Assembly: GCF_001543145.1 (NCBI RefSeq)
Contig: NZ_CP014160.1
Coordinates: 1,612,001-1,676,000 of the forward strand
Length of the DNA stretch: 64,000 nucleotides
Direction of reading: 5' to 3'
Source: Aerococcus sanguinicola
GTDB taxonomy: Bacteria > Bacillota > Bacilli > Lactobacillales > Aerococcaceae
Shown here: positions 802 to 60,335 of the stretch, in pieces
Layout: each line of letters opens with the position of its first letter
Position numbering within the stretch: position 1 is the first letter of the stretch
Translations under genes and position numbers: made by a program
The notes under the pieces: model-generated
Told to the model about the DNA's origin: nothing
Database searches by the model: none
Seen by the model: only the letters and a program-made list of their open reading frames with translations

Positions 802-919
802 GGGTGAGAGCAGTTGCGCCTAGACTTGAATGACTGGAGCCCAATCGGAAAAGAGCGGCTTTAGCCGATCGTTCCGATTGGGTGAAGTCACTTCAAGTCT
901 GCAACTGCGAACCCGACTA
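802..919 (+). repeat. Family A structured repeat, unit 1 of the pcp array
   Basis: The unit begins GGGTGAGAG and ends CGAACCCGACTA. Inside, successive arms pair outward-in: CAGTTGC with GCAACTG, AGACTTGAA with TTCAAGTCT, CCCAATCGGAA with TTCCGATTGGG, and CGGCT with AGCCG at the tip. It begins 4 bp after the pcp stop codon and is followed in the same orientation by two more units with different arm sequences. Confidence 0.85.
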
Positions 920-921
920 TA

Positions 922-1037
922 GGGTGTGAGGGAGCGCGGGTAGAAGTGGACCGCTGGAGCAAAGCGACAGAGAAGACTGAAAGTCTTCGACGGCGCTTTG
1001 TGAAGAGGAGCCACTTCTGCGCGACCGAACCCGACTA
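922..1037 (+). repeat. Family A structured repeat, unit 2 of the pcp array
   Basis: Same ends (GGGTGTGAG ... CGAACCCGACTA) as unit 1 but different pairing arms: GCGCG with CGCGC, GAAGTGG with CCACTTC, CAAAGCG with CGCTTTG, and a tip GAAGACT with AGTCTTC. The change of sequence with retained pairing indicates that structure rather than sequence is kept. Confidence 0.85.
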
Positions 1038-1042
1038 GGAAA

Positions 1043-1158
1043 GGGTGAGAGGGCTGGCGGTTAGCTTTACTTCACTGGAGCAAGTCGCCAGAGCAGTCTG
1101 CAAGACTGCGGCGGAGACTTGCGAAGTGACAGGAAAGCTGCTAGCACGAACCCGACTA
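1043..1158 (+). repeat. Family A structured repeat, unit 3 of the pcp array
   Basis: Ends as in the other units. Arms are AGCTTT with AAAGCT, CACTTC-type flanks, GCAAGTC with GACTTGC, and a tip GCAGTC with GACTGC. Its core is nearly identical to the middle unit of the mecA locus (16696-16812). A truncated fourth unit (GGGTGCGGGGGCTGGCGGTTA) starts at 1161 and loses similarity after about 1181. Confidence 0.85.
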
Positions 1159-1286
1159 AAGGGTGCGGGGGCTGGCGGTTAAATTGACCAAGATCCAATT
1201 AAATGCTGTGATTGTGGGTCAATGATGACCAACATTCAAATAGAGCTTTCGATTGTGGGTTGACATACTGAATAAAACCATCCCCA

Positions 1287-1356
1287 AAAAGCGGTGGGAG
1301 TCCAAAGCCTATCCAGCGACTCTTCTCGATAGGCAGATAGGACTTCCATCGCTTTT
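1287..1356. terminator. Long bidirectional hairpin, probable Rho-independent terminator
   Basis: AAAAAGCG-TGG-AGTCC at 1287-1304 pairs with GGACTTCCATCGCTTTTT at 1339-1356, with a second arm CCTATC/GATAGG in the interior. The flanking A and T runs allow it to work in either direction. It separates the repeat array from the downstream promoter. Confidence 0.7.
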
Positions 1357-1361
1357 TAATA

Positions 1362-16695: not shown

Positions 16696-16812
16696 TTAAT
16701 CGGGTTCGGTCTGGCAGCTTTCGTGTCACTTCACAAGTCTCCGCCGCAGTCTTGCAGACTGCTCTGGCGACTTGCTCCAGTGAACGAAAGCTAAACGCCA
16801 AACCTCACACCC
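16696..16812 (-). repeat. Family A repeat, middle unit of the mecA array
   Basis: Read on the minus strand: GGGTGTGAG ... CGAACCCGATTAA, with arms AGCTTTCG/CGAAAGCT, GCAAGTC/GACTTG and tip GCAGTC/GACTGC. Its core matches unit 3 of the pcp array almost exactly although the two loci are 15 kb apart. Confidence 0.85.
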
Positions 16813-16815
16813 TTA

Positions 16816-16932
16816 TAGTCGGGTTCGACTTGGCAGACTTGGAGTGATTTCACAAATAAGAAACGAGCGAATGCTTCGCTCTTATCCTTATTTGCTCCAA
16901 TCATCCAAGTCTAATCGCCAAGTCTCACACCC
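16816..16932 (-). repeat. Family A repeat, unit adjoining the mecA stop codon
   Basis: Read on the minus strand the unit begins one base after the mecA stop. Pairings are GACTTGGC/GCCAAGTC, AGACTTGGA/TCCAAGTCT, CAAATAAG/CTTATTTG and GAGCGAA/TTCGCTC. Compared with the unit at 60219, paired positions change together (CAAGTCAG/CTGACTTG and AGGCTTGGA/TCCAAGCCT there). Confidence 0.88.
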
Positions 16933-16933
16933 T

Positions 16934-17581
16934 TTATTTAAAGTTATTGGCGATGGTTTGGTTGGCGCGGCCTTCTGCTAGGATTTGGCCGTGTTCTCTT
17001 AGAACCGCCTGATTGATGGAAGGAAGTTGTCCGTATTCGAGGGCACAATAGATGGCGTTCTCGATGGTTCCAGGATCATATTCAGTCGGGTTAAAGGTTA
17101 AAAGATAATAGAATTGGCCGCCTAGCTGGTAGAGGTCGACTTGGACGTCTCTTAGGGGATAGGCGTGGCTGAAGGCGATGAGGTCATCGAATTTTTGGAA
17201 GCCAAGAATGACCTGGTTCCAGTCTTCTTGATCCCAGTCCTTGCTCAAGATGCTATCTTCCTGTTCTAATTTGGCTTCGCCCTCTTCGATGATATCGAGC
17301 AATTTCTTATAAGCTCGGCGCTCTTCTTCAGGGGAAGTTTCAGGTCCCGTCTTGCTGATATAGAGATCAATTCCTCCCTTTTTAGGCATCACTTGGAAGG
17401 TGAGGGCTTCCGAGTCTTGGAAGCGCCGGGAGGTATCCATTTCTTCCAAGACAGATAGGAAGAAACTTTCGACAGCCTTCTGGTCGCTAATAATATCGGT
17501 GAAGGAAATTCCTCGGTCAACGAGGTCTTCTGACGCGATAAAGACACGCATAGTATTTTCATTGATATATTCCATTTCCAT
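16934..17581 (-). CDS. mecA: Adaptor protein MecA
   Basis: MecA hands substrates such as ComK/ComX or Spx-like factors to ClpC-type unfoldases. The 215-residue protein has an N-terminal substrate-binding domain beginning MEMEYINENTMRVFIASEDLVDRGI split by a linker (about residues 85-115, rich in acidic residues) from a C-terminal Clp-binding domain containing FQKFDDLIAFSHAY and EYGQ. It is monocistronic and a family A repeat lies one base after its stop. Confidence 0.94.
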   Translation of the reverse strand: MEMEYINENTMRVFIASEDLVDRGISFTDIISDQKAVESFFLSVLEEMDTSRRFQDSEALTFQVMPKKGGIDLYISKTGPETSPEEERRAYKKLLDIIEEGEAKLEQEDSILSKDWDQEDWNQVILGFQKFDDLIAFSHAYPLRDVQVDLYQLGGQFYYLLTFNPTEYDPGTIENAIYCALEYGQLPSINQAVLREHGQILAEGRANQTIANNFK

Positions 17582-52013: not shown

Positions 52014-52189
52014 GAGAGTGTGACAAAAGTCGATCAGGCCTGAACCACTGGAACGAACTATGGGAAATCGTTGGTAAACGATTGGACATAGTTCGTGAAG
52101 TGGATGTCAGGCCTGACTTTTGGAACACGTTTTTGAAAAATGTTCGCTTTTTTAAAAGAGGCCGGAACTTTTGTCCCAGTCTCTTTTTT
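52014..52189 (+). repeat. Family B element, full copy after ptsI (also a terminator)
   Basis: Ends GAGAGTGTGACAAAAGT and ACTTTTGTCCCAGTCTC are inverted copies. Inside pair TCAGGCCTGA-type arms, CGAACTATG with CATAGTTCG, and AATCGTT with AACGATT. The 3' end runs into TTTTTT, so it can end the ptsI transcript. Confidence 0.8.
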
Positions 52190-60119: not shown

Positions 60120-60215
60120 CATAAAAAACGCCCTTCAGTTCATACTGAGAAGGCTGTAGGCCTTCGACGTCCTTTTGCGAAGAGGAGCCCTTTCTGCATC
60201 CTCGAACCCGACTAC
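60120..60215 (+). repeat. Family A repeat, 3' part only, after cshB
   Basis: A partial unit with the tip GAAGGC/GCCTTC and the end CGAACCCGACTA but no GGGTGTGAG start. Confidence 0.6.
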
Positions 60216-60218
60216 TAA

Positions 60219-60335
60219 AGGTGTGAGACTTGGCGCTTAGGCTTGGATGATTGGGGCAAGTCAGAATAAGAGCGAAGCATTCGCTCGTTTCTGACTTGTG
60301 AAATCACTCCAAGCCTGACAAGTCGAACCCGACTA
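60219..60335 (+). repeat. Family A repeat, complete unit of the cshB locus
   Basis: AGGTGTGAGACTTGGC ... CGAACCCGACTA with arms AGGCTTGGA/TCCAAGCCT, CAAGTCAGAA/TTCTGACTTG and GAGCGAA/TTCGCTC. A further truncated unit starts GGGTGCGAAGGC at about 60339. Confidence 0.88.

Follow-up and report, generated by a model that had tools for sequence, protein, structure and literature searches.

A dispersed family of hairpin-forming repeats in Aerococcaceae, mostly placed at stop codons and differing in content between sister species

The array downstream of pcp

Behind the pcp-like gene of Aerococcus sanguinicola, three stretches of DNA with common ends and nearly equal length stand one after the other and have different interiors. 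The window (the whole stretch of 64,000 nucleotides that was analysed) had been the subject of a preliminary description, from which the name pcp is taken as a predicted, ORF-based label and in which the stretches were described as complete units of a tandem array of a ~117-bp repeat. The array limits, unit ends and unit length given there are correct: three complete units (118, 116 and 116 nt) lie head to tail (Table 1), with the 5' end GGGTGAGAG or GGGTGTGAG and the 3' end CGAACCCGACTA, and are joined by the linkers TA (units 1 and 2) and GGAAA (units 2 and 3). Their interiors are unlike each other, as had been stated, yet each unit is predicted to fold into one long RNA hairpin, with energies of -68.5, -55.0 and -55.7 kcal/mol and z values of -9.96, -6.42 and -5.07 for units 1, 2 and 3. 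Further units are found elsewhere in the window, among them those behind the minus-strand gene at 16934-17581, which we take to be mecA-like.

The array was not listed by Tandem Repeats Finder. Rfam gave 0 matches at the gathering threshold over the whole window, and the sole match of a lenient Rfam search of positions 780-1300 was to a miRNA model (E 0.91) and is not credible. The array had been described as different from CRISPR, which holds, since the stems of the units vary, the linkers measure 0-6 nt in 114/116 cases and there is no constant repeat with unique spacers of equal length.

Table 1. Coordinates of repeat units and associated features in the window
Feature	Position	Strand	Basis and remarks
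pcp-like gene, 216 codons	147-797	+	ORF list; stop TAA 4 nt upstream of unit 1
Unit 1, P2 stem CAGTTGC/GCAACTG	802-919	+	Covariance model 120.9 bits; fold -68.5 kcal/mol
Unit 2, P2 stem GGAGCGC/GCGCGAC	922-1037	+	Covariance model 109.0 bits; fold
Unit 3, P2 5' arm GGCTGGC, 3' arm partly mismatched	1043-1158	+	Covariance model 108.7 bits; fold
22-nt 5' fragment of an additional unit, adjoining other hairpin repeats	1161-1182	+	Sequence by eye; best fragment match begins at the unit's first base
Inverted repeat and T-run 3' of the array, likely a transcription terminator	1286-1357	+	By eye; limits approximate
Unit, 1 nt past the stop of the minus-strand gene 16934-17581	16816-16932	-	Covariance model match
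Second unit of the 16816-16932 array	16697-16812	-	~53-nt fragment behind it, found in the sister genome too
Unit with the 3' part of another unit (60147-60214) before it	60219-60335	+	Covariance model match

A dispersed repeat family

The units are members of a dispersed, non-coding repeat family of Aerococcaceae. The earlier interpretation of a selected structure that is not CRISPR stood, whereas the dispersal over the genome, the starts at stop codons and the differing content in a sister species had been overlooked. In the 2.03-Mb genome of the organism itself (G000) the 12-nt tail CGAACCCGACTA was counted 132 times and the reversed control once, and a covariance model built from 34 units has at least 150 matches there. 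In 56 stretches plus the window the model gave 240 matches, which after removal of 9 weak ones (35 bits or less) and 4 duplicates from overlapping stretches left 227 in 108 clusters; 71 of these clusters hold two to six units and 3 are of mixed orientation. Eleven of the 227 matches belong to another, MITE-like family (two of them assigned from sequence alone), so that 216 units in 100 clusters remain; the eleven are still inside the counts of neighbour pairs, unit pairs, units shared by sister arrays, starts at 0-7 nt, fragments and terminators given below. The general form of a unit is GGGTG...GACTA over about 115-119 nt. The 5' arm of the P2 stem exists in eight variants, each found 12 to 33 times, and the stem is broken in 23/216 units.

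Building a covariance model and searching related genomes with it, which had been suggested as a check, gave matches in relatives whose stems covary as well. Under strict filters, and with no more than 61 matches scored in any genome, 19/60 genomes searched contain the family, G000 included: 11/15 Aerococcus genomes, 7/21 from other genera of the family and 1/24 from other families of the order. Under the same filters no match was obtained in the Aerococcus genomes G003, G004, G007 and G011. The exact pattern was found in Aerococcus sp. HMSC062A02, A. suis and Aerococcus sp. UBA6277 and, backed by a model match, in one Streptococcus record (L078); no model match backs the pattern matches in records of Caulobacter, Paenibacillus and Paracoccaceae, which were taken as chance. 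No family match was found in phages. Among plasmids a single record has matches, Aerococcus tenax CP127381.1, and at the one site read the unit lies 216 nt past mscL, within another repeat and away from a stop codon. Although deposited as a plasmid, this record (L297; 591 kb) may be a piece of chromosome, since core genes such as tuf, fusA and the operons for ribosomal proteins lie on it. The literature searched, which included few subscription journals, yielded no description of the family.

Fold, covariation and strand preference

The units encode one long hairpin in which the internal loops are constrained while the stems change and are compensated. In the alignment of 147 distinct units 97.7% of cells are paired, and both sides change in 27 of the 34 pairs. 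The covariation score of these own-genome units is 0.698 against 0.177 when shuffled (0/500 shuffles as high), and that of 72 distinct units of other genomes is 0.767 against 0.191; the alignments had in both cases been fitted to the model, a procedure favouring structure, and the shuffles leave the relatedness of the units in place. Slid controls gave 0.05-0.20. RNAalifold applied to a sequence-only alignment of 34 units also returned 34 pairs, 25 of them with double changes. This strong covariation bears out the claim that the array reflects a selected structure and not a plain duplication. Among the invariant positions of the 34-unit alignment are several in loops (for example G5, A8, G35, G-A-A around column 84, G-A around column 109), and we infer that these loops form tandem sheared G-A pairs.

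The mismatches point to the sense strand. With the pairs at columns 38 and 39 excluded, GU was counted in 53 cells and AC in 16 (p 9e-6), and private single changes from Watson-Crick pairs led 34 times to GU, 10 times to AC and 28 times to other mismatches. A bias from C to T does not account for this excess, because the unpaired columns show 36 changes of G to A and 20 of C to T. In other genomes the excess of GU over AC is slight (40 to 23, p 0.04) or absent (56 to 52), depending on the exclusion rule. The preliminary description had named as a refuting case an inactive MITE with random changes in its arms; what is seen are arm changes that are mostly compensated and, in G000, more GU than AC mismatches. 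In all four units compared, the sense fold is better than the antisense fold by 8.6-11.4 kcal/mol, but shuffled sense strands likewise fold 2.5-7.4 kcal/mol better, so that the advantage is partly one of composition. The antisense strand also folds well (z -4.4 to -8.4), and the same strand preference could come from a single DNA strand.

Position relative to stop codons

The arrays lie in the sense orientation and mostly begin at a stop codon. With gene ends taken from a simple ORF caller (at least 70 codons), 86/108 clusters have a same-strand gene upstream, and 66/108 start between -58 and +7 nt from its stop (TAA 43, TAG 13, TGA 10). At the offsets -8, -22 and -6 the stop codon lies within the unit, and at -1 it is formed at the junction. 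Once the other family is removed, 65/100 clusters start at the stop, within 7 nt past it or run into the stop of the same-strand gene, while 35/100 lie away from a stop codon. A start at 0-7 nt past the stop, seen in 47 clusters, is expected for 1.9% of non-coding position-strand pairs. Starts abutting a stop were also seen elsewhere (HMSC062A02 35/63, A. suis 6/7, UBA6277 2/4, the Streptococcus locus 1/1).

Fragments of units are found within 200 nt downstream of 45/108 clusters, and in 36 of these the best match starts at the 5' end of the unit (first three bases); upstream fragments were seen in five clusters.

Neighbouring repeats

Several other repeats accompany the arrays. A second kind of hairpin repeat, ~41 bp long and in tandem, occupies positions 1183-1262 of the window; its ends covary (AACCCACA...TGTGGGTT and AAGCCACA...TGTGGCTT), and it is also present 3' of many arrays (clusters 30, 32, 35, 36 and 73), often behind a truncated unit head. 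A tandem hairpin family around AATTTGC...GCAAATT is found 3' of several arrays (clusters 20, 68, 91 and 94). The MITE-like family starting with GAGTGTGACAAAAGTCG, which gives a weak model match, was seen in the window at 52016-52133 and at L143:7261-7378 and L134:1651-1768. L001, L006, L012, L097 and L296 contain a longer repeat that exists in multiple copies (...AGCAAGC followed by GATGTGAATTA or a variant), and units sit at one identical point of it in several copies and species. Five copies of the tail CGAACCCGACTA, with a period of 15 nt, make up a small satellite of the unit end at G000:C1:996400-996471. In L133 the arrays in clusters 24 and 26 are followed closely by similar regions, including the terminator, as if the 3' region had been copied between loci.

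Sites compared between Aerococcus genomes

The pcp orthologs of 10/15 Aerococcus genomes end at a matching residue. Arrays start 4 nt past the stop of this gene in G000 and in G001, which is taken to be the sister assembly HMSC062A02. Inspection by eye revealed a diverged relative right after the stop in G002, G006, G010 and G013, with a weak covariance model match at the site in the last two as well, and no unit after the stop in G007, G008, G009 and G011. In the first 210 nt past the stop, also read by eye, the greA slot is filled in 2/15 genomes, the mecA slot in 2/14 inspected and the mgsA slot in 2/11, in each case in G000 and G001; at def a unit was seen in G000 and none in G001 or the 12 others inspected. 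Within a syntenic region of 380 kb, 7/9 clusters of G001 and 6/7 mappable clusters of G000 are filled in both genomes, 6/13 G000 clusters there being unmappable.

The sister species often have the same slot (the stop, the linker and in some cases a 3' fragment) with a unit of another subfamily in it. Thirty-seven orthologous arrays of G000 and G001 have flanks that are 80-99% identical, and only in 2 does the identity of the first unit exceed 85%. Two of the 37 pairs are unusable because of N runs or overlong matches; among the other 35 the first unit differs in 33 and is more than 85% identical in 2, and the P2 5' arm is common to both genomes in 3. The 16-nt 5' junction is conserved in 24/35 (23/37 by a stricter ungapped count), and in 22 of those 24 the first unit differs. 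The sister assembly is of draft quality and some of its arrays contain N runs, so that mosaic interiors may be assembly errors; in its arrays the first stem arm lies at most 16 nt from unique flank. The content is not wholly renewed, because in 8/37 sister arrays some unit recurs in the other genome at an identity of at least 93%, where 40 shuffled pairings gave 4.35 on average and never more than 7. One site has a different first unit, whereas its second unit and its linkers, with one base excepted, are conserved, and at the mecA site a 3' fragment is conserved between G000 and G001.

Units seem to be copied as a block without their linkers, since in 54 near-identical unit pairs at different loci the upstream 4 nt are the same in 1 and the downstream 4 nt in 1 (chance 5.3% and 3.4%); linkers travelling with the units are thus unsupported. 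Only two insertions are clearly readable. In the filled and empty pair L097 and L130, possibly paralogous copies of another repeat, TTAA and one unit were inserted without target duplication, and in the second ~25 nt were replaced. At two sites one genome has only a 5' fragment and the other has full units and the fragment.

A different picture is given by G010 and G013, where 15/30 and 15/35 matches were examined. The same units are kept at 5/5 orthologous sites, with identities of 114/115, 114/114, 103/115, 114/115 and 115/115 in surrounding alignments of about 90-97%. The units are more conserved than their surroundings at four sites and less at the fifth (103/115 against 97%). As these genomes keep the same units, exchange cannot be general; it may occur only in the many-copy lineage, or the units may be selected where they stand.

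Discussion

We consider as the best reading, with about an even chance of being right, that the units are mobile, REP-like repeats under selection for the fold of the sense strand and are copied into slots in 3'-UTRs. The form recognised during copying would be the folded sense strand, as RNA of the 3'-UTR or as single-stranded DNA of the same strand, and since the fold would be what is recognised, well-folded units would act as donors. In a slot right past the stop codon a unit would be transcribed and left untranslated, and the gene would be spared. By analogy with the REPs of E. coli, a strong hairpin near the stop may affect the release of ribosomes or the decay of the mRNA. A rather doubtful proposal is that of interchangeable hairpin cassettes, in which the stop-codon slots would receive new units out of a pool spread over the genome, with at least eight subfamilies, through an undescribed exchange that reads the mRNA-sense fold together with the two short constant ends.

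The main rival of the mobile-repeat reading is a function in cis on the mRNA, which we regard as possible but somewhat unlikely. The unit would be a 3'-UTR RNA element, and any intact unit past the stop would serve its mRNA through stalling or release of ribosomes or through protection from exonucleases; the units would be interchangeable modules, in which gene conversion replaces the letters and leaves slot and fold as they are. The spacing from the stop codon, the sense orientation and the excess of GU are in agreement with this, and so are the terminator-like hairpin downstream of 38/65 arrays, the syntenic clusters filled in both sister genomes and the four units of 114-115 nt that are near-identical in G010 and G013 while their surroundings reach about 90-95%. 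Moreover, in PMC12306157 E. coli REPs at most 15 nt from a stop are described as stalling ribosomes. Against it speak the slots, which are not conserved across the genus (greA, mecA and mgsA are filled in two genomes each and def in 1/14), the four Aerococcus genomes in which the strict filters left no match, the 35 of 100 clusters that lie elsewhere than at a stop codon, and the fifth unit of G010 and G013, which has diverged more than its surroundings.

That the units are an ordinary DNA MITE or REP moved by a transposase, of the IS200/IS605 or RAYT type or by cut and paste, is improbable. Their high copy number and palindromic form would be expected of such an element, and Y1 transposases (PF01797) are present in 14/40 genomes overall and in 5/11 of the unit-bearing Aerococcus genomes. 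However, PF01797 was not found in G000 itself or in G001, G009, G012, G013 and G014, all of which bear units, the one clean filled and empty pair has no target duplication, and the mismatches are biased to the sense strand. The distribution of the Y1 transposase does not follow that of the units, and it was rejected as their partner. A reverse transcriptase with an RVT_1 domain was rejected as the copier in the same way, being found in 5/15 members of the genus and absent from 6/11 of those with units. The RVT_1 (PF00078) match of G000, at about 1350-2410 of L256, lies beside the inverted repeat AAGTGCATGATAT/ATATCATGCACTT and appears retron-like by eye.

Transcription terminators made of hairpin clusters would also be placed after stop codons, and it is argued in PMC8355165 that hairpin clusters without U-tracts can terminate. 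We think it very improbable that the units act in this way, as a hairpin with a T-run lies within only 4/227 model matches, whereas a separate one follows 38/65 stop-abutting arrays within 400 nt (3/65 in shuffles), and orthologous genes that have no unit often show a hairpin and T-run soon past the stop (many genomes, by eye). Tandem duplication of one sequence followed by drift can hardly be upheld for G000 despite the regular spacing, the common orientation and one array of G010 and G013 (L317 and L312) with neighbours 93% and 97% identical in both genomes (2/13 neighbour pairs), because 0/119 neighbouring pairs of G000 reach 90% identity against 5.3% of random pairs, the same P2 5' arm is shared by 5/119 where 10.6 are expected, and the linkers differ.

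The family is classed as a variant within the structured interspersed repeats, outside REP/RAYT, from which it is kept apart because the transposase test failed in its own genome. The resemblance to the attC arrays of integrons, which are same-orientation arrays of folded units, is one of working principle only; the Aerococcus arrays are without cassettes, have variable linkers and occupy ~100 loci. EFAR and Efa-1 of Enterococcus faecalis, a relative among the lactic acid bacteria, are likewise structured repeats with alternative sequence types, and the target of EFAR is a stem-loop that is lost. According to PMC2267715, Efa-1 is a pair of adjacent stem-loops. The Aerococcus unit differs from EFAR and Efa-1 in being one continuous hairpin with a stop codon as its usual neighbour. 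BOX and RUP of Streptococcus pneumoniae, both named in PMC2267715, are short structured intergenic repeats of the same order, and the module layout of BOX is not seen in the Aerococcus units.

The nearest analogue is provided by the REPs of E. coli that lie near stop codons, as described in PMC12306157. The REP/BIME repeats are alike in being palindromic intergenic units, many in number, dispersed and often near stop codons. According to PMC12306157, an earlier study proposed that 260/496 E. coli REPs act on translation, and those at most 15 nt from a stop are counted as 446/4,072 in PMC12306157 itself. The Aerococcus units differ from them in their length of ~117 nt, their constrained internal loops and covarying subfamilies, their single orientation in all but 3 clusters and the lack of a Y1 transposase in their own genome.

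The family offers hundreds of alternative sequences for one fold at defined positions of mRNAs, and it permits testing whether structures abutting the stop codon affect the termination of ribosomes in Gram-positive bacteria. Should swapping be borne out in more strains, the arrays would in addition distinguish strains sensitively. Moreover, the family points to a so far undescribed means by which short structured DNA is copied or exchanged from one fixed slot to another.
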